A stretch of DNA of 33,205 bases, taken from the IMG/VR virus record IMGVR_UViG_3300009788_000081, positions 1-33,205 of that record; one strand, given 5' to 3'. Both the position numbers and the translations under genes were made by a program. The notes under the pieces were generated by a model. It saw only the letters and a program-made list of their open reading frames with translations. It did not search any database and was not told the origin of the DNA. Positions 4,231 through 33,205 of this stretch are shown piece after piece (positions within the stretch are counted from its first letter, which is position 1; every line of letters starts with the position of its first letter). Source of the DNA: a virus.

Positions 4231-6477
4231 ATGAATTTAGGCACACTGATAGCCAAAATCAAAGCAGATACAACTGGTTTTAAAAAAGGACTTACAGGAG
4301 CAAAGAAAGATATAAAATCCTTTCAAAAAACGGTAGGTTCTAGTATGCAAAAAGCCAAGACTTCATCTTTAATGGTAGCTGGTGCTATTACAGCAATTGG
4401 AGTTGCTTCTTTTAAATTAGGAGATGTTGCTGGTAAATATGAAAGCATAAGAGATGCTTTTGGCTCAATGACTAAAGAGATGGGTATTGGTGTTGAAGAT
4501 TTTGAAAAGAAAGTTGCTGACGCTTCAAGAGGTACATTAGATAGATTAACTATTCTTCAGGGTGGTACTAGGGCTTTATCTCTTATAGGTAGAGAAGCCT
4601 TCTCAGATTTTGGCAATCAGTTTGCTCAAATGGCTGCTCTTTCTAAAAAGGCAGCTAGGGCTACTGGTCAAGAGGTAACATTTATGTTTGATTCATTAAT
4701 TACTGGTATGTCTAGGGAGTCTAAAATGATTTTGGATAACCTAGGAATCACAGTAGATTTGACTCAAGCTAAAAAAGATTATGCTGAAGAATTGGGTAAA
4801 AGTACAGAAGAATTAACGATAAGTGAAGAAAAAACTGCTGTTTTAAATCACACTCTTGAAAAATTAGAAGAAACTTATGGCGATGTAGCAGTTTCAGGTG
4901 GTGGCTTTGCTGGAGCAATGTCAGCATTAAAAACTTCGATTACTAATGCCAGTATTGAGATAGGTACTGCTTTGTTACCAGCCTTAAATCATTTGGTTAG
5001 GATACTTACTCCACTTATCGAAGAATATATACCAAAACTTATTGGTAGGATGAAAAGCATTATTGATTGGCTTAAACAAAATGAATGGGCTGTTTATGGT
5101 TTAGCAGGAGCAATCATAGGAGTATTAGTCCCTGCATTTTATGCTTTGGCTGTAGCAATATGGACTGCAATGACTCCACTCCTTCCATTTATTGCTATAG
5201 GTGTTGCCATAGGATTAGCTATATGGGGAATTATAGAAGTTGTAAAAATACTTATTAAGGAGTGGTCAAAGATGGTAAAGATTTTTGAGCAACTCCCTGG
5301 CAAAGAAGTAGTGGCATGGGGAGTTAAAATGAAAAAAGCTTTTGAGGACTGGATAGAGGAAACATCAAAAAAAGTAATCAAATTTTTTCAAACACTTCCA
5401 GAAAAGGTAAAAAAAGGACTCGAGAAGCTAGTAGGGATAATGATTGATTACAATGTTAGGACTTTAGAAAGATGGGGTACTCATTTAATAGAATTAGAAG
5501 AAAAAATTAGAGTTTGGTTTGAAGAATTGCCTGGTAAAGTAGAGACTTGGTTGATTACAACAGGGGAAGTGATTTCAGCTTGGTGGGATGAAACAAAATT
5601 GGCTATTGTAAATAAGTTAATGGAGTGGGGAGAAGCCATTAAAGTTTGGTTTGAAGAATTGCCAAATAGAATAAAAGAATGGCTATCTTCAATTAAAGCA
5701 GCATTTTTAACTGGGTGGGATGAAATTAAAACAAATACAGTACAAAAATTAACTGAAATAAAAGAAGGTATAAAACTATGGTTTGACAATTTGCTGGTGA
5801 GTTTTAAAGAATGGTTCACAAATCTAGGTAAAGTAACACCTAAAAGCATTGTAGAAGGATATGAGTCGGAGCGACTTTCAATGGCTGGCAAAATAGTTGC
5901 TTATATATTAGGATTTATAGGTTTAGTATTGATTACTTTAGTTGTAGGATTTATTGATGTAGCAATAAAAGCTACCACAGCATTACGCAAGAAGTTAATA
6001 GAAGGACTTGAAAAAGTAAGGGCTTGGGCTATAAAGAAAATTGGTGAGATAGTAACTGGTGTTTATAATAAATTTCTTGAGTTGCCTGGTTTAATAAGAG
6101 ATGCAGCTAGTAAAATTAAAAATGCTCTTATTCAGCCATTTAAAAATGCTTGGGATTCTATTAAGGGTTGGCTTGATAAAATAAATCAAGGAATAAAAGA
6201 TGCACTTGATAAAGATACAAAAGGGAGTCTTTCAATTCAACAAACATTAGACGAAACTGTTGCTGCTGTTAAAAACGCTTATAGTGAATTAGGAAATATA
6301 GCTTTACCTTCAATGTCTAGAACAGTAACACCAGCAATAGCACCAGTGGCTACTGCTACCAGGGGAGTAGTACAGCATAATAAAATTGGACAAGTTGTGA
6401 TTCAAGAGCCTATGGATATTGATACTTTTATGCGAAGATTAAGTTTTGATTATAGAACTAGAGGAGATTTAGGATGA
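4231..6477 (+). CDS. Tape measure protein
   Basis: This 748-residue protein is the largest tail gene and should set tail length and help DNA entry. It starts MNLGTLIAKIKADTTGFKKG, the classic opening of phage tape measures (LxxxIxADTxxFxxGL). A conserved N-terminal region (about 1-250) is followed by hydrophobic segments at about 285-345, long helical repeats rich in W and E with recurring WFEELPGK/WFEELPNR units (about 370-540), and another hydrophobic segment at about 550-580. No lytic transglycosylase or peptidase motif was recognised. From length alone the tail should be roughly 110 nm, assuming 1.5 A per residue. Confidence 0.9.
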   Translation: MNLGTLIAKIKADTTGFKKGLTGAKKDIKSFQKTVGSSMQKAKTSSLMVAGAITAIGVASFKLGDVAGKYESIRDAFGSMTKEMGIGVEDFEKKVADASRGTLDRLTILQGGTRALSLIGREAFSDFGNQFAQMAALSKKAARATGQEVTFMFDSLITGMSRESKMILDNLGITVDLTQAKKDYAEELGKSTEELTISEEKTAVLNHTLEKLEETYGDVAVSGGGFAGAMSALKTSITNASIEIGTALLPALNHLVRILTPLIEEYIPKLIGRMKSIIDWLKQNEWAVYGLAGAIIGVLVPAFYALAVAIWTAMTPLLPFIAIGVAIGLAIWGIIEVVKILIKEWSKMVKIFEQLPGKEVVAWGVKMKKAFEDWIEETSKKVIKFFQTLPEKVKKGLEKLVGIMIDYNVRTLERWGTHLIELEEKIRVWFEELPGKVETWLITTGEVISAWWDETKLAIVNKLMEWGEAIKVWFEELPNRIKEWLSSIKAAFLTGWDEIKTNTVQKLTEIKEGIKLWFDNLLVSFKEWFTNLGKVTPKSIVEGYESERLSMAGKIVAYILGFIGLVLITLVVGFIDVAIKATTALRKKLIEGLEKVRAWAIKKIGEIVTGVYNKFLELPGLIRDAASKIKNALIQPFKNAWDSIKGWLDKINQGIKDALDKDTKGSLSIQQTLDETVAAVKNAYSELGNIALPSMSRTVTPAIAPVATATRGVVQHNKIGQVVIQEPMDIDTFMRRLSFDYRTRGDLG

Positions 6478-11781: not shown

Positions 11782-11810
11782 TTGATATTTACTTTAATAT
11801 AAACTAAAAT
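11782..11810 (+). promoter_or_regulatory. Promoter, TTGATA-17-TAAAAT
   Basis: -35 TTGATA (11782-11787), 17-bp spacer, -10 TAAAAT (11805-11810). It lies in the intergenic region and points toward the replication gene. A start-stop pair ATGTAA after AGAAAGG (11825-11836) lies in its predicted leader. Confidence 0.5.
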
Positions 11811-11837
11811 ATGAATAATTAACAGAAAGGATGTAAG

Positions 11838-11866
11838 TTGATTTCTTAAAAGTAACAATTTATAAT
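11838..11866 (+). promoter_or_regulatory. Promoter, TTGATT-17-TATAAT
   Basis: -35 TTGATT (11838-11843), 17-bp spacer, perfect -10 TATAAT (11861-11866). Transcription is predicted to begin near 11873, within CAATGATTA (11872-11880), which equals half of the palindrome at 12891-12908. The initiating base would fall at or next to the ATG at 11874. Confidence 0.6.
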
Positions 11867-11873
11867 ATAAGCA

Positions 11874-11999
11874 ATGATTAAAATATTAGGGATTAAATCA
11901 CTTTTTTTGTCAGGTTGTCTAGTTAAAGTAGGCAACCCTAATAGCCTTAATCAGGCTAGGCAATCTGGCAAAGTAAGTGATTTTTTTATTATTAATTAG
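11874..11999 (+). CDS. Possible leaderless 41-residue peptide
   Basis: An open frame of 41 codons starts at the predicted transcription start of the 11838 promoter, so it would be leaderless. It reads MIKILGIKSLFLSGCLVKVG and continues to a stop whose TAG overlaps the SD (AGGAGG) of the next gene, suggesting coupling. It runs straight through the inverted repeat at 11895-11983, so it may only be a chance frame across a structured leader. Unknown family. Confidence 0.3.
   Translation: MIKILGIKSLFLSGCLVKVGNPNSLNQARQSGKVSDFFIIN
11895..11987 (+). promoter_or_regulatory. Foldable leader / inverted repeat before the replication gene
   Basis: AAATCACTT (11895-11903) pairs with AAGTGATTT (11975-11983) and is followed by a T run. 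Inside, two foldings compete. One is a 15-bp stem (11908-11922 with 11956-11970, counting G-U pairs). The other is two hairpins: GGTTGTCT/AGGCAACC (11913-11920/11930-11937) and TAGCCT/AGGCTA (11942-11947/11953-11958). The second gives a three-way junction. It could act as an attenuator, a terminator for late transcription, or a DNA-level site. Confidence 0.6.
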
Positions 12000-12014
12000 G
12001 AGGTACTATAACAA

Positions 12015-12885
12015 ATGTCAAAGTACCTCAAGAAAGGATAAAAGTCTGGACAATCCAAATGTCATAAGACAATTATTCGAGGAGTTTCAGGAAAAGCCCA
12101 TTGCCTATCAAAGAGTTTATTCAGAGATTACAGGCAGTGTAGTAGCAGGTTTAGTGTTATCACAATTAGTTTATTGGGATAAAACCATGAAGCATAAGTG
12201 GTTTTATAAAACAGACCAAGACTTTTCAGATGAGTTAGGAGTTAGTGTTTATGAGCTAAGAGCAGCCAAAAAGAAGATTAAAGAGCTTAAATTGGTTGAA
12301 ACAAAGCTAAAAGGTGTGCCAGCAAAGACTAATTATAAGGTAAATATTGATTTATTAATCAATAAAATTGTCAGTTTGCGTAAAAGTCGTAAACTAGATT
12401 GTGTAAAAACCACAAACAAGATTAAGGGAAAATCGCAATCTATTACAGATAATAATACAGATAATAAATCAGATATTAATAATTATAATTTATCGCATGA
12501 TAAATCAGCGATAGCAAGTAAAAATAAAACAATTAAGAAGACGTATAAGAAGAATTACAAACAAGCACATCCTATAAGCCAATTTTTAGATGAATACAAT
12601 CACTTAAAGGATAAAGAAGTCTTAACTGAAGCTATTAAATACTACATTGATTGTTATGGCGAGAAGGTTGGCACTACACCATCAAACATCAAGGTAGCTC
12701 AATGGCTTAAAGTAGAAACCAACTTAAATGCTTTTCAAGATGAAAATGGCTTAGGTGAAGATGATTGGATATTATTATTAGAGCAATGGTTTAAAAAGAT
12801 TAAAGACACAGATTTCAACATAATCCATTTTGCTACAGGTGAAATTATGCAAAATTGTCTTTTTAATGCAGGATTATATAATTAG
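12015..12885 (+). CDS. Replication initiation / winged-helix protein, start frame disrupted
   Basis: The main frame (stop 12885) encodes a winged-helix domain of the phage/plasmid replication type: PIAYQRVYSEITGS, VAGLVLSQLVYWDKTM, WFYKTDQDFSDELGVSVYEL, then a wing and LKGVPAKTNYKVN. A lysine/asparagine-rich linker and a second helical domain (about 200-290, DEYNHLKDKEVLTEAIKYYI) follow. No ATG, GTG or TTG lies between 11980 and the conserved region in this frame. The strong SD AGGAGG (11998-12003) points to ATG 12015, which reads MSKYLKKG and then TAA. A +1 shift at GGA-TAA (12036-12041) joins it to the main frame. This is either an indel or programmed frameshifting; a GTG at 11977 without SD is the alternative. 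Confidence 0.6.
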
Positions 12886-12890
12886 CACTT

Positions 12891-12908
12891 TCAATGATTA
12901 ATCATTGA
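12891..12908. promoter_or_regulatory. Palindromic operator
   Basis: TCAATGATTAATCATTGA is an 18-bp perfect palindrome placed one base upstream of a consensus -35. Such a site would suit a dimeric repressor or activator acting on the 12910 promoter. The half-site CAATGATTA occurs again at 11872-11880. No obvious repressor gene is encoded in the window. Confidence 0.6.
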
Positions 12909-12909
12909 T

Positions 12910-12938
12910 TTGACATTTGACTTAGATTTTATTAAAAT
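12910..12938 (+). promoter_or_regulatory. Promoter, TTGACA-17-TAAAAT
   Basis: Consensus -35 TTGACA (12910-12915), 17-bp spacer, -10 TAAAAT (12933-12938), overlapped by a TATAAT at 12938-12943. Predicted start near 12945, exactly at the base of the first hairpin of the structured RNA. Confidence 0.7.
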
Positions 12939-12944
12939 ATAATT

Positions 12945-13156
12945 GCTTCAGATAGAAACTTCTTTTTTATCTGACGCAACCATATTTAGTAGGCTTTACC
13001 TCCTACTAAGTCCTTTCTAGCGTAGGTTTTGCTAAACGCCTACGGCTAAAACCTTTTACTGCTGGTAGTAGCACTCACCAGAAAGGTTGAAAGAAGTGCT
13101 TAGATTTAGATTTAGAATGAAGGGGTGGGCGTTAGAAATAACTCTCACCCTTTTAT
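12945..13156 (+). ncRNA. Candidate ~210-nt structured phage RNA, unknown class
   Basis: No convincing gene lies between 12886 and 13225, but the stretch holds five successive hairpins between a promoter and a terminator. P1: GCtTCAGATA (12945-12954) with TATCTGAcGC (12968-12977). P2: TTAGTAGG (12986-12993) with CCTACTAA (13002-13009). P3: 13018-13029 with 13034-13048, a long stem with small bulges and a TGCT loop. P4: AACCTTT (13050-13056) with AAAGGTT (13082-13088), then CTGGT/ACCAG (13062-13066/13077-13081). The last is the terminator at 13120-13153. A linker at 13100-13116 repeats TTAGAT units. I recognise no known RNA family. Confidence 0.6.
13120..13154 (+). terminator. Rho-independent terminator with GNRA loop
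   Basis: AAGGGGTG (13120-13127) pairs with CACCCTTT (13146-13153) including one G-U pair. G128-G129 stack on T145-C144, and an inner GTTA-GAAA-TAAC hairpin caps the stem. TTTT (13151-13154) follows. It closes the transcript that starts near 12945. Confidence 0.7.
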
Positions 13157-13169
13157 ATTCAACTACTAC

Positions 13170-13199
13170 TTGACATTGACTTTAGAATAGTTTTATAAT
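13170..13199 (+). promoter_or_regulatory. Early operon promoter, TTGACA-18-TATAAT
   Basis: Perfect -35 (13170-13175) and perfect -10 (13194-13199), 18-bp spacer, directly after the terminator and 26 bp before the first small early gene. Confidence 0.75.
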
Positions 13200-13225
13200 A
13201 GGGTAAATCAAGAAAGCGGGTAAAT

Positions 13226-13414
13226 ATGAAGATAACTCAAACAAAGAAAATCAAATTCACTTATGAAGATAAGAAGGATAGAGGTGTTACTTTTTCTACT
13301 ATTAAAAGAAAACTAACTCACATTCATTGGGATTTGCCTTATGAAAAGGGCTTAGATGATTTAAGGTTTCAATCCAGAGCGATTACTAGATTTTTAAAGG
13401 ATATTAAAAGATGA
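13226..13414 (+). CDS. Hypothetical early protein
   Basis: A 62-residue basic protein, first gene after the strongest promoter of the window. It carries no recognisable motif; the C-terminal DDLRFQSRAITRFLKDIKR looks helical. Weak SD AAGCGGG precedes the ATG. It overlaps the next gene by 4 bp (ATGA), so the two are likely coupled. Small first-in-operon early phage proteins are often host-takeover factors, but nothing here shows this. Confidence 0.6.
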   Translation: MKITQTKKIKFTYEDKKDRGVTFSTIKRKLTHIHWDLPYEKGLDDLRFQSRAITRFLKDIKR

Positions 13415-15547: not shown

Positions 15548-16216
15548 ATGATTGAAGGATTAGCAAAACCTTGGGGTGAATTAGCTTTGTATAATAGATA
15601 CGCTACCTATTTGTGGGAAAGCAAGCTTCCTTATGTGGATTTCTTTCTTGAATATCCACCATTATCTTTGCCGTTCTTTTGGATTGCTCAAGTATTTGGG
15701 GAAAAGTGGTTTACTTTAACTTGGTATGGATTGATTGGATTGTTCGTTTTAGCAACCTTTTTGATGATTAAGAAGATGGGTGGTAGAGGATTTGCTTTTA
15801 TAGCTTCTATTTTGCCTCTGGCTGGCTTATTTTGGGATAGGTTTGATATGATACCAGCCTTTTTCAGCCTATGGGCGGTTATCCTTTTAAAGAAAGAAAA
15901 GTATTCTCAAAGTTGGTTCTTTTTAGGATTGGCTATCTTAGTCAAAATTTATCCAGTTGTTCTACTGCCTTATTTTTTAGTAAAAACCCCGCTTAAATCA
16001 ATTTTAAGGTGTCTATTACCATTAACTATACCTATCCTATTACTTTTAGGAATCATAAGCCTCTATGGTGGCTTAGAAGGCTTAAAGGGGTTTGCTAAAT
16101 TCCAAGGGGTAAGAGGGGTTCATTTAGAAAGTGTTAGAGCAATCCCTTATTTATTAGACAAGGAGAATTCAGTTACAGAATTTCGCCATAATACTTTTGA
16201 GATTGGAGAAAAATGA
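15548..16216 (+). CDS. GT-C-type membrane glycosyltransferase (GT87/DUF2029-like), N-terminal part
   Basis: A 222-residue polytopic membrane protein with about six hydrophobic segments. The ALYNRYATYLWESKLPY and FFLEYPPLSLPFFWIAQ signature is that of polyprenyl-phosphate-sugar-dependent GT87-like transferases; WDRFDMIPAFFSLWAV and ILVKIYPVVLLPYFLV fit the following helices. Usual members exceed 400 residues and have an extra N-terminal helix bearing the acidic catalytic residue; this copy starts just after it would end. No SD precedes the ATG. It ends in ATGA shared with the next frame, which encodes the C-terminal part. Likely to transfer a sugar at the host membrane if functional. Confidence 0.65.
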   Translation: MIEGLAKPWGELALYNRYATYLWESKLPYVDFFLEYPPLSLPFFWIAQVFGEKWFTLTWYGLIGLFVLATFLMIKKMGGRGFAFIASILPLAGLFWDRFDMIPAFFSLWAVILLKKEKYSQSWFFLGLAILVKIYPVVLLPYFLVKTPLKSILRCLLPLTIPILLLLGIISLYGGLEGLKGFAKFQGVRGVHLESVRAIPYLLDKENSVTEFRHNTFEIGEK

Positions 16217-16524
16217 GAATACCATTTTTATTAATCTTATTATCAATCTTGATTAGTAACACTTTTTCTCCTCAGTATTTAATTTGGTTAGCTCCCTTTG
16301 TAGCTTTCTTAGATGATGAAGAAATTGGTCTATTTATTTCCGCTTCTTTTTTGACTTGGGTTTATTTTAGACATTGGAGTGATTTAATCCAACTTCAACC
16401 TGTGGTGATATGGGTATTGATTATAAGAAACTTATTGTTAATCTTATTATTTTTGGTTTCAATTTATAAAATATGGGCAAAGAGTCGAAGAAAGGAGCTA
16501 AATGGCAGACATAAATCTTCTTGA
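16213..16524 (+). CDS. GT-C-type glycosyltransferase, C-terminal part (split gene)
   Basis: A 103-residue membrane protein with about three hydrophobic segments. NTFSPQYLIWLAPFVAF is the characteristic late helix of GT87-like transferases, so this is the missing C-terminal region of the frame ending at 16216. The 4-bp overlap could couple the two halves as subunits, or GAAAAATGA could allow a -1 slip. Sequence or natural frameshift decay is the alternative. Compared with full-length relatives, some helices in between appear to be absent. Confidence 0.6.
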   Translation: MRIPFLLILLSILISNTFSPQYLIWLAPFVAFLDDEEIGLFISASFLTWVYFRHWSDLIQLQPVVIWVLIIRNLLLILLFLVSIYKIWAKSRRKELNGRHKSS

Positions 16525-16675
16525 GGAAATCGAAAGAGTTATGGATTTCTTAGAAGAAAGAAAGACGATTGCTGGCAGAAGTGGTAAGGCGAGATTATTA
16601 GCAATAGCAATTACACACCTTGAGACAGCAAGATTATTTATAAAAGAATCAGAGCAAAAGTTTCGGCAATTATGA
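16502..16675 (+). CDS. Acb2/Tad1-like small helical protein (candidate anti-CBASS/anti-Thoeris)
   Basis: A 57-residue protein with a good SD (AGAAAGGAG at 16489-16497), overlapping the previous gene by 23 bp. Two helices are evident: LLEEIERVMDFLEERK and, after a GRSGKARL turn, LAIAITHLETARLFIKESEQ. The second matches the hallmark of the Acb2/Tad1 hairpin family, a helix of the form LALTKLEEAxMWxxxA, whose members sponge cyclic nucleotide signals of CBASS or Thoeris defence. Known members are longer (about 80-120 residues), so this is a minimal or divergent case. Assignment is from motif resemblance only. Confidence 0.45.
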   Translation: MADINLLEEIERVMDFLEERKTIAGRSGKARLLAIAITHLETARLFIKESEQKFRQL

Positions 16676-16730
16676 GGTAGTGGGATTCACCAAGAGTTAA
16701 TCGCCAATGAAAGTTACAAGTAATCCATAG
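16671..16730 (+). repeat. Intergenic ~60-bp direct repeat, copy 2
   Basis: Matches copy 1 at 15453-15513: TATGAGGT (16671-16678), GGATTCACCAAGAGTTA (16683-16699), TACAAGtAATCC (16715-16726), then ATAG. The middle differs in sequence and length. It overlaps the stop codon of the 57-residue gene. The two copies flank the glycosyltransferase and Acb2-like genes. Confidence 0.75.
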
Positions 16731-16742
16731 TTTAAGTTACAG

Positions 16743-29487: not shown

Positions 29488-30054
29488 ATGGCAACATTTA
29501 CATGGAATTTACAAGGTGTAGCAGACACAGAATTAGAAGATACAGATAAACTTCAATTCGCAGGAGCAGCTTTTGATGATGCTGTCACTGTTTCTGAGTA
29601 TCAAGATTCAACTCACGTTGAAGCAGCAGGAGGTGCTGATGATTCAGATGGTAATACTCCAAACAATGTGAAATTTATTTCACAAGCTGGTGGAGGTGGA
29701 GGCGATTCACAAGCAGATTGGGGTGATGGTACAGAAGATATTGACGCAATTTTGGAAGCAGAATGTACTTTAGATATTCTATTCAATCATGGGTCATCAG
29801 TTATCACTGAAAATGCTATTTTCTTTGCTTACGATGGTACTACTCCAGCCACAGGTCCAACAGGAGTTACTTTCCAAGCATTTGAATTAGGAGATACTAA
29901 CTTCACAAATTGTGAAGGAAGTGGGTCAGCTTTAGACATAGAGGATGACACAACTGCTGAAGACCACCACTACTTTATTGGTGTATCAGCAAGTCCAGAT
30001 TCAGTAGGTCTAAAAACAGCATTTAAGATGCGTATTGAGTTGACTTACGCTTAA
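29488..30054 (+). CDS. Probable abundant virion protein (beta-rich, acidic)
   Basis: A 188-residue, acidic, strand-rich protein: MATFTWNLQGVADTELEDTD, a glycine-rich loop (ISQAGGGGGDSQADWGDG), and C-terminal VGLKTAFKMRIELTYA. Its leader is almost the same as that of the major capsid gene, so it is likely made in quantity, for example as a head decoration or a tail/fibre structural protein. No family recognised. Confidence 0.5.
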   Translation: MATFTWNLQGVADTELEDTDKLQFAGAAFDDAVTVSEYQDSTHVEAAGGADDSDGNTPNNVKFISQAGGGGGDSQADWGDGTEDIDAILEAECTLDILFNHGSSVITENAIFFAYDGTTPATGPTGVTFQAFELGDTNFTNCEGSGSALDIEDDTTAEDHHYFIGVSASPDSVGLKTAFKMRIELTYA

Positions 30055-30078
30055 AATCAGTATTATTAATTAAGGGAT

Positions 30079-30134
30079 GTTAAAATCACTTTTAACAACC
30101 GCTTAGTTGAATGAGGAAACTAATTTGACTAAGC
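30079..30134 (+). promoter_or_regulatory. Two hairpins between the virion gene and the 140-residue gene
   Basis: GTTAAAA-TCAC-TTTTAAC (30079-30096) is a perfect stem. GCTTAGT (30101-30107) pairs with ACTAAGC (30128-30134) around a loop holding ATGAGGA. They may end or stabilise the upstream message. An extended -10-like TGTTAAAAT overlaps the first stem. Confidence 0.4.
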
Positions 30135-30155
30135 AAAAGTATTTCGGAGGTATTT

Positions 30156-30578
30156 ATGAAAGTTAAAATAAATGTATTCAAAAATAAATGCAGATGGTTT
30201 GCGTCATTATCCAATGGTGAAAATGCAGTAGAAGGCAAAGATAAGTTTGAAGAAATTAAAGGTGAAATATCACCTTGGCAAAAGCTATTAGCATATATTG
30301 AAAAAAACAAGCTTACCATTACAGGTATGCAGATTAGAGCAGAAGGTAAAGTCTTTACTCTGCCCTCAACTGAGCCTAAATTTGGCGGCGAAGTCCCTTT
30401 AGGATATAAGTATTTCAGAAAAGCAGTAGCAGATATGATGTCTGACAATCCTAAAGATTTGCACTTAGCAGAGCTTTATATTTGCATACAAGCTATCTAC
30501 AAGAATTTCACAGTTAGCTTATGGGTTGATGAAAATAATAGTAAAAATTCTTGGGTTAGTGTAGAATTAAACAAATAA
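30156..30578 (+). CDS. Hypothetical protein
   Basis: A 140-residue protein with SD CGGAGG just upstream (30145-30150). N-terminal strands (KVKINVFKNKCRWFASLSNG), a middle region with LTITGMQIRAEGKVFTLPST, a helix (FRKAVADMMSDNPKDLHLAE) and a final strand (NSWVSVELNK). No family recognised. It stands between a virion gene and the tail fibre, so a structural or accessory fibre role is possible. Confidence 0.5.
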   Translation: MKVKINVFKNKCRWFASLSNGENAVEGKDKFEEIKGEISPWQKLLAYIEKNKLTITGMQIRAEGKVFTLPSTEPKFGGEVPLGYKYFRKAVADMMSDNPKDLHLAELYICIQAIYKNFTVSLWVDENNSKNSWVSVELNK

Positions 30579-30698: not shown

Positions 30699-33205
30699 AT
30701 GAACAACACACATTCAATTGATTTTGAGCGAGATTTTTCTCAATGTAGTTATATTCTTGATAATGTCCCACTTTCTATTACTGCCGACATTTCTATTGAG
30801 ATGTGGGTTAAATTCGAGACACTGCCTTCTGTTGTTGGCTCTAGTAATTATTTATTATCTAAATACGCTGGTGATGTACGGTCTTATACTCTAGGTATTG
30901 ATGTAAATGATAAACTCTTTTTCATTGCTAGTGATGGTGGTGAAACTCCAATTTATACCTCAACAACTTCGACTGATGCTGTGGTTGGTTCGACTGGAGT
31001 GTGGATACACGTAGCGGTAACATGGGATGCTTCTGAGAAACTATCGGGAATAACTTTATACAAAAATGGTTCACCAATAGCTGTTACTGGTGGCAACAAT
31101 CAAACAACTACCATGATGGATAGCAATGTCCCTTTTGTTGTTGGTGGAATCGGTGACAATCCTCCTTTTTCAAATTATCCTGACGCTAAGATAAATAATG
31201 TAAGAGTTTTTTCAGATGTCCGTACCCCACAAGAAATTATAGACAATCGGTATCAAGTTCTTACTGGTACAGCTAATAACCTAGTTGGTAGCTGGTATGC
31301 TTCTGAAACCCATGATGATTTAGCAGGAAGCAATGACTTGACAGCTCTTGGCTCACCTGTATTTTCAACTGACACACCTTTTTGGACAGGAAGCCAAACA
31401 GTAACAGCTAAAGGTAGTATTCAAAGACAATTTGCTCAAACAATAACTGCAAAAGCTTCAATCAGAAAATCGTTCATACAAACTGTAGCTACTAAGGGAA
31501 GAATTCAAAAGCAGTTTATTCAAACTATCCAAGCTAAAGTTTCTATAAAGAAATTTGGGCAAAGTCAAACAATAACTGTCAAAGCTGCTATCCAAAAACA
31601 GTTTAGTCAAACTATAAATTCTAAAGCACGAATTGAAAAAGAATTTTCTCAAACTATTCAGGCTAAAGCTCGAATAACAATAACCTCCAGTCAGACAGTA
31701 ACAGCTAAAGGTAATATCTCAAAACCAGGAAATAGTACAAAACTAGCAAGAATTACAGGTCAAGATACTGCTGATAAATCTAAATTAGCAAGAATTCATG
31801 GACAGGATACAGATAACTCAGCTAGAAGTGCTGTAATCGCTGGTGAATATAGAATGATTGCCTATCCTTGGCAAAGAAAGACATGGTTTGAAGGTGCTAG
31901 GGCTTGGAGAGCATTATTTAATCCAACTGAATCAAGAATTGAATTTTGGTATTCAGATGATTACGCACAATCTTGGACAGAAAATACTAATGCAAGAATT
32001 ACAGATGCAGGAGTTTCAACAGACTTCTTTGTTAGAGATAAACCAACAATCCAAGTAGTAATTGCTTATTCAAATGGTCAAGACATTCTAATAAGGGAAA
32101 ATAGTGGCACTTATCCAGGCACAGCTTGGGCATGGGAAGCTGCTTCAACAATAACTTCAGGTGGGGCTAATGATAAATATATTTATCCTGCTTTAGCTTT
32201 ACTTAAAAATATTAAATGGCAGGTTTCTTATACTCACCACGATACTAATATTGCTGATTATTACTATATTGAATCTAGGAAATCTACAACTCCTAATCAA
32301 ACAGTTAATTGGGATGGCATAACAGTTTTAAGTAACAATACAAATGCTTCACCTAATTGTTTTTCATCCATTGGCAGAGTTGGTGTAGCTCAAGAAGATA
32401 CCTTGTGTGTTTGGGTAAGGGATGACGCTTTAGAATATAAAGAAGAAGATAATGGCTCTTGGGATGTTTCTGCTACTTCAATAGCAACAGTTTGTGGTTG
32501 TTATCCTGAATTTGGATTTGCTCTTGATAACTATACTGTATCAGGTGAAATTCATATAGTTTATGTTAAAGCTGATGGCACAATTTGTGAAAATGATTTT
32601 GTACATGACTCAGGATTACAAGGTGAAGAAGTTTTAGAAGCAACTCCAGGTGGTAGATTTCCAACTGTCGCAGAGCATTCAGAAGGCGAAGCTCATTACT
32701 TCTGGATTAGAGGCACTGACCTTTATACTTATCAAGAAGGTGTTGGTAAATCAATCGTACAAGGTGGGTTATCACGCTATGCTTCTTGGTTAAATGTAAA
32801 CCAAAATGCTTCATTTGAAGTCTTATTTGTAACTTGGCAAGAATTTGACACTATAAATTCTATATTTGTAGAAGGTCAATCCCAAGATGCTAGGGAAGCT
32901 CGGATACATGGTCAAGACACAGATACTAATGATAGGTTGGCTAGGATTACTGGTCAAGTAACTGACAACTCAGATAAGTTAGCAAGAATTCATGGGCAAG
33001 ACACAGACGCTTCAAGCAGAAACGCAAGGATTACTGGTAAAACATTTACTGGTGAAAGATTGGCAAGAATTCATGGTCAGGATACTGAAGTTGGTGAAAG
33101 AGAAGCACGGATTCATGGTGAGGCAGTAGGCACTTCTGATAAAAATGCAAGGATTACTGGTCAAGATACAGATAATTCAGGGCGAGAAGCTAGGATAACT
33201 GGTAA
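30699..33205 (+). CDS. Tail fibre with LamG-like, repeat and propeller-like domains (continues at 2-823)
   Basis: The frame from ATG 30699 is open to the right edge and continues across the overlap to TGA 821-823, giving 1068 residues. Order: LamG/concanavalin-like domain (about 8-205: ISIEMWVKFETLPS, VWIHVAVTWDASEKL, ITLYKNGSPI, AKINNVRVFSDVRTPQEI); eight 14-residue repeats of SQTI-x-AKA-x-I-x-K-x-F (about 228-345); two or three ARITGQDT repeats; a propeller-like domain (about 384-729) with a degenerate Asp-box, YSDDYAQSW; then the long array B. SD AAGGAG lies 14 bp upstream. It is most likely a receptor-binding fibre with a glycan-binding head. Confidence 0.85.
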   Translation, partial: MNNTHSIDFERDFSQCSYILDNVPLSITADISIEMWVKFETLPSVVGSSNYLLSKYAGDVRSYTLGIDVNDKLFFIASDGGETPIYTSTTSTDAVVGSTGVWIHVAVTWDASEKLSGITLYKNGSPIAVTGGNNQTTTMMDSNVPFVVGGIGDNPPFSNYPDAKINNVRVFSDVRTPQEIIDNRYQVLTGTANNLVGSWYASETHDDLAGSNDLTALGSPVFSTDTPFWTGSQTVTAKGSIQRQFAQTITAKASIRKSFIQTVATKGRIQKQFIQTIQAKVSIKKFGQSQTITVKAAIQKQFSQTINSKARIEKEFSQTIQAKARITITSSQTVTAKGNISKPGNSTKLARITGQDTADKSKLARIHGQDTDNSARSAVIAGEYRMIAYPWQRKTWFEGARAWRALFNPTESRIEFWYSDDYAQSWTENTNARITDAGVSTDFFVRDKPTIQVVIAYSNGQDILIRENSGTYPGTAWAWEAASTITSGGANDKYIYPALALLKNIKWQVSYTHHDTNIADYYYIESRKSTTPNQTVNWDGITVLSNNTNASPNCFSSIGRVGVAQEDTLCVWVRDDALEYKEEDNGSWDVSATSIATVCGCYPEFGFALDNYTVSGEIHIVYVKADGTICENDFVHDSGLQGEEVLEATPGGRFPTVAEHSEGEAHYFWIRGTDLYTYQEGVGKSIVQGGLSRYASWLNVNQNASFEVLFVTWQEFDTINSIFVEGQSQDAREARIHGQDTDTNDRLARITGQVTDNSDKLARIHGQDTDASSRNARITGKTFTGERLARIHGQDTEVGEREARIHGEAVGTSDKNARITGQDTDNSGREARITG
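31384..31738 (+). repeat. Fibre repeat array A (eight 42-bp units)
   Basis: Coding repeats of 14 residues (one has 15) of the form SQTIxAKAxIxKxF, for example SQTINSKARIEKEF. They share the ARI core and the period with array B, which suggests one ancestral repeat. Confidence 0.8.
32886..33205 (+). repeat. Fibre repeat array B (right-edge part)
   Basis: Seven to eight units of the ARI(T/H)GQDT repeat before the contig edge; the array continues at base 2 (after the 123-base overlap is counted once). Confidence 0.85.
33083..33205. repeat. Terminal overlap, right copy
   Basis: This is the second copy of the 123-base terminal overlap, identical to bases 1-123. If it is redundant, the unique genome is bases 1-33082. 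A real short direct terminal repeat on linear virion DNA is the alternative, but such ends are not normally placed inside a structural coding sequence. Confidence 0.9.

Follow-up and report, generated by a model that had tools for sequence, protein, structure and literature searches.

The window analyzed here is the whole viral record of 33,205 bases, the ends of which form a 123-bp perfect terminal direct repeat. This points to a circular and complete assembly, although the repeat sits in an internally repetitive gene. Because that gene, made of short repeats (RIHGQTT...), is found at both ends of the window (positions 1-823 and 32059-33205), the circular closure could also be a repeat artefact. 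All identified genes (terminase, portal, capsid, tail, tape-measure, a replication gene, SSB and glycosyltransferases) lie on the + strand. A GT87-like membrane mannosyltransferase is split over two overlapping ORFs of 222 and 103 aa (15548-16524), the first of which scores just under the Pfam cut-off; this may be a gene of host origin in decay. A host search of a genome collection with the terminase and GT87 gave no match.

An O-like or DnaD-like replication-initiation gene (11977-12885, + strand; phrog_9773, E = 1.7e-25; phrog_6493, E = 5.7e-10) is directly followed by a gap of 340 nt (12886-13225) that is without a credible ORF: none exceeds 30 aa and none has a convincing ribosome site, in agreement with an earlier, sequence-only reading of the locus. 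Both contig ends and the stretch 30895-31857 excepted, this gap is the longest found between genes. It is followed by small ORFs of 62, 88 and 65 aa, which belong to no toxin family; for the first (13226-13414, + strand), taken from the ORF list, family searches gave no family at all. The sequence-only reading had placed the gap at the boundary of late and early genes, which is only roughly right, since the replication gene stands directly upstream and the structural genes come before that.

Five nucleotides after the end of the replication gene (12885), and one base 5' of a -35 box, inspection of the sequence confirmed a perfect 18-bp palindrome, TCAATGATTAATCATTGA (12891-12908, assigned to neither strand). 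Among the perfect palindromes of the window it is the longest; no other site there resembles it with three mismatches or fewer, and its 14-bp core beside TTGACA was seen in none of the other IMG/VR contigs. From its sequence it is a candidate operator, or else a weak hairpin after the replication gene. Half a copy (CAATGATTAA) is present at 11871-11880.

Two sigma-70-type promoters follow on the + strand. Promoter 1 (12910-12938), the one already described, is a near-consensus TTGACA-17-TAAAAT with its -10 box at 12933-12938; promoter 2 (13170-13199), TTGACA-18-TATAAT, matches the consensus at 12 positions out of 12, for which the expectation is 0.05 per strand per genome. Over the genome, matches at 11 or more of the 12 positions number three on the + strand (12910, 13170 and 23594) and none on the - strand, compared to 0.55 per strand expected from shuffling, and two of the three, including the perfect one, flank the folded RNA described below. 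Promoters 1 and 2 have TTGACATT(T)GACTT(T)AGA in common, in their spacers. Both are probably of an early type, promoter 2 being presumably the first promoter of the early ORFs. When TAAAAT is taken as the -10 box of promoter 1, the predicted start at 12945 is indeed the first paired base of the RNA, as first proposed. However, a perfect TATAAT at 12938-12943 overlaps this box and is an alternative -10; if it is used, the coincidence is lost, and the start may therefore lie near 12950, inside the first hairpin.

Between the two promoters lies a predicted untranslated structured RNA of about 210 nt (12945-13156, + strand), supported by minimum free energy (MFE), z-score and ensemble. Folding of positions 12945-13160 gave an MFE of -72.3 and a z-score of -4.95 (-6.45 when the palindrome was included), and this energy was the lowest among 237 windows sampled on a coarse grid of the + strand. 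The ensemble corresponds to a single well-defined structure, with helix pairing probabilities of 0.79 to 0.99, and the hairpins announced from the letters were confirmed in position. According to folding and pairing probabilities, all on the + strand, these are P1 (12945-12977; an 11-bp stem, 12948-12958/12964-12974, plus 2 bp), P2 (12984-13011; a 10-bp stem) and a three-way junction (13013-13093) made of a closing helix (13013-13017/13089-13093), arm a (13018-13048) and arm b (13050-13088). Three stems have at least nine uninterrupted pairs, and 1% of shuffled sequences reach as many. The GC skew of the RNA is -0.05 compared to +0.21 for the genome, and we counted this neutrality in favor of the reading preferred below, since it is expected of a base-paired RNA.

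Folding places a terminator-like hairpin at 13117-13156 (+ strand), with stems of 13 and 4 bp and a GAAA loop. The hairpin and its loop are as had been claimed, but the U tract is imperfect, with four U that are paired within the stem and then an A, and a simple terminator scan made no call. All the elements named in the sequence-only reading were thus found at their positions. Two loop-linker pseudoknots (12959-12966/13090-13097 and 13070-13075/13095-13100) are noted but not claimed; each had p ~0.02 before correction for five tests, and they share bases. An apparent duplication of the P2 and P3a hairpins (p ~0.017) is not claimed, and a simple duplex scan singled out no antisense target in the phage.

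No relative of this RNA was found. The Rfam 15 covariance models gave nothing at or above gathering, so that the earlier statement that it matches no RNA family holds against that release. When positions 12885-13225 were compared by blastn with 50,697 phage records (NC_001706 included), the outcome was one 28-nt match at chance level, in another phage; homologues were absent from plasmids, phage records and the related contigs fetched. Viral scans made with the O-like gene, the HTH gene (alone and aligned), the terminase, the endonuclease-like protein and the start of the tape-measure gene, as well as with a joined query of three early ORFs and with the operator/-35 DNA pattern, yielded no homologue either. 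A single-sequence covariance model of the RNA recovered only the RNA itself in 621 kb, the best other match having an E value of 4.6.

The slot itself could be compared between related phages. The terminase search returned five contigs at 80 to 89% identity, most of them short, and only L005 and L008, whose terminase is 80% identical, extend to the corresponding junction. These two contigs are identical across the 1,500 bp compared. Their junction spans 1.4 kb, flanked by a lysis gene on one side and the HTH gene on the other, and includes ORFs of 70 and 57 aa; it has no sequence similarity to the RNA, local alignments being no better than shuffled ones, and perfect palindromes of 14 bp or longer are absent from L005. 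Four TTGACA-17 promoters are present at the L005 junction (4007, 4346, 5112 and 5326). The second, TTGACA-17-TAACAT, is followed by an ORF-less RNA of 150 nt (z = -6.2), skew-neutral as well, and by a recognized terminator (4503-4522). This unit (4385-4522, also in L008) resembles the one studied here in its position at the corresponding junction, its TTGACA-17 promoter, its strong fold, its terminator and its lack of an ORF; it differs in being one long hairpin plus terminator, and its sequence has no detectable similarity to the RNA at 12945-13156. A third and more distant phage, L060, provides weaker evidence: a short terminator-bounded stretch just 5' of a TTGACA-17-TACAAT early promoter. 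The arrangement of promoter, folded RNA and terminator recurs at the slot; the sequence and the fold do not. The likeness of the L005 unit may be coincidental, strong hairpins happening to fall within a long gap. For early accessory genes that evolve fast, unrelated sequence is to be expected between phages with 80% terminase identity.

Other elements were noticed in the window and its relatives. A block of about 68 nt (16664-16731, + strand) recurs in L005 (6621-6686), L008 (9606-9671) and contig L011 (1656-1723) with 81 to 83% identity, mostly in the gap 5' of an endonuclease-like ORF, the flanking genes having diverged. It folds by pairing of GGCAATT with AATTGCC, in which one pair is compensated; a GGATT/AATCC pseudoknot may form as well, and there is no Rfam match at gathering. 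As a conserved RNA element, this block makes a stronger candidate than the RNA at 12945-13156. Directly 5' of the replication gene, positions 11782-11990 hold a promoter-like TTGATA-17-TAAAAT, a large imperfect hairpin (28-nt arms at 11895-11922 and 11956-11983, 82% complementary; fold z = -5.08) and a tail of seven T; the similarity of this unit to the RNA at 12945-13156 and to L005 was not significant. Strong folding (z of -4.9 to -5.5) was also seen at 29961-30310, around the gap 30055-30155. In L005, a noncoding stretch (4536-4870) ends in TAGCCGCTTCGGTGAAATCCCGATGTACGGTTA, which by eye looks like domain V of a group II intron; this was not supported by Rfam, and the z-score of the fold is only -1.5.

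Several known systems can be set beside this locus. In lactococcal phages of the c2 type (Ceduovirus), the replication origin occupies a noncoding stretch at the early/late junction that is bracketed by the first two early promoters, has no ORF and is hypervariable, without similarity between groups; its transcript is believed to initiate replication (PMC7150918). The origin transcript of c2 is also annotated in NC_001706. The stretch 12886-13225 has the same anatomy, being ORF-less and bracketed by two promoters, insofar as these are early as we infer; it begins next to a replication-initiator gene, which ends just before the palindrome, and in related phages the same slot is occupied by unrelated sequence, as if replaced wholesale. 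Promoters 12910 and 13170 would then be the equivalents of PE1 and PE2, and the noncoding transcript between them would start phage DNA replication. We consider this unlikely. The c2 and 923-type stretches fold no better than chance (z = 0.18 and 0.48, compared to -4.95 here), and that of c2 has a skew toward G (+0.23, compared to -0.05), whereas the RNA here has a strong single fold, a neutral skew and a terminator-like end, in a genome with all genes on one strand. An R-loop primer is for this reason less favored, and the likeness to c2 is one of position, not of the RNA; the make-up used in this comparison (no excess folding, a G-rich strand), absent here, is our own yardstick and not a published criterion. 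No iterons were found near the RNA and no skew switch at the locus, the neighboring genes in L005 were not recognized as replication genes, and the blastn comparison with the 50,697 phage records revealed no similarity to the known Ceduovirus ori groups.

The fold could instead serve transcription control in cis, which we regard as doubtful, though a little less so than an origin. The hairpins and terminator would shield the early promoter from transcription arriving from upstream, or the RNA would be a put-like or attenuator leader, letting polymerase that starts at 12910 read into a one-directional genome. The single coding strand, the terminal redundancy, the small number of strong promoters and the terminator-like hairpin just 5' of promoter 13170 are all consistent with such a role, and there is a precedent in phage HK022, where put RNAs, which have two stem-loops, lie downstream of early promoters (PMC9378689). 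The RNA resembles put in being a hairpin RNA just 3' of an early-type promoter, with P2 and P3 one unpaired base apart. However, put RNAs are about 70 nt long and act in cis on downstream terminators, whereas this one is 210 nt long, has more elements, and is closed by a terminator-like hairpin of its own, after which comes a second promoter. That promoter, the stronger of the two, begins 14 nt past the terminator, so that the early genes would gain little from read-through, and insulation alone needs the terminator hairpin but not the structured elements 5' of it. That the RNA has no function, the hairpins being chance or relic features of a long intergenic gap with two promoters, is improbable. 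The lack of sequence conservation would fit, and other stretches of the window fold well too (z = -5.5 at 30101 and -4.8 at 12321); against this, the fold has the lowest energy sampled in the window, with promoter and terminator-like ends, and 340 noncoding bp are retained here in a compact phage genome.

Other RNA classes were also considered. RNAs of type III toxin-antitoxin systems consist of tandem pseudoknot-unit repeats followed by a ToxN-like gene; the tandem repeats in this RNA amount to at most 2.8 copies of TTAGAT, and no ToxN-like gene is present among the next ORFs. A prophage-immunity RNA, of the P4 CI or P1 c4 type, is less likely, as no integrase or repressor was recognized among the ORFs and proteins searched. 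Phages also encode RNA anti-CRISPRs (Racrs), which interfere with host defence (PMC10651486); the RNA is, like them, a small phage noncoding RNA immediately 3' of a promoter, but Racrs mimic a CRISPR repeat. The defence role suggested earlier received no direct support, with neither a type III toxin-antitoxin system nor a defence gene nearby.

We conclude that the locus is a well-bounded structured-RNA candidate for which neither a family nor a homologue was found; the RNA is new, the kind of element is not. A discrete noncoding transcript probably exists: the idea of an independent, phage-encoded structured RNA that has a promoter and terminator to itself is well supported by the sequence, the folding energy and the L005/L008 analogue, and it is its transcription that we infer. 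The reading slightly favored over a cis-acting leader or insulator and over a c2-like origin transcript is that of a stand-alone early RNA whose fold acts in trans, to which we give a probability of about 0.38. The RNA, about 210 nt long, would be an early product of host RNA polymerase, which would start at promoter 12910 and stop at the hairpin 13117-13156, independently of the early protein operon that would start at promoter 13170. The folded RNA would bind a host or phage protein, rather than act by base-pairing or by coding, and would be a fast-evolving early accessory RNA.

Related phages place an unrelated folded RNA at an equivalent position, which suggests that the slot is of some importance. 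More speculatively, and with the odds well against it, early phage units made of a promoter, a strongly folded noncoding RNA and a terminator may form a class occupying a fixed slot before the early genes, in which unrelated RNAs are swapped between sister phages. Such a slot would be a hot spot at which effector RNAs evolve fast, as RNA equivalents of the early proteins of host takeover or anti-defence. If real, the RNA described here would extend the noncoding RNAs encoded by phages with one that belongs to no known family, and would allow a direct test between replication start, transcription control and host interference. It would also point to a recurring slot at which unrelated folded RNAs replace one another, and hence to a simple way of finding more of them.
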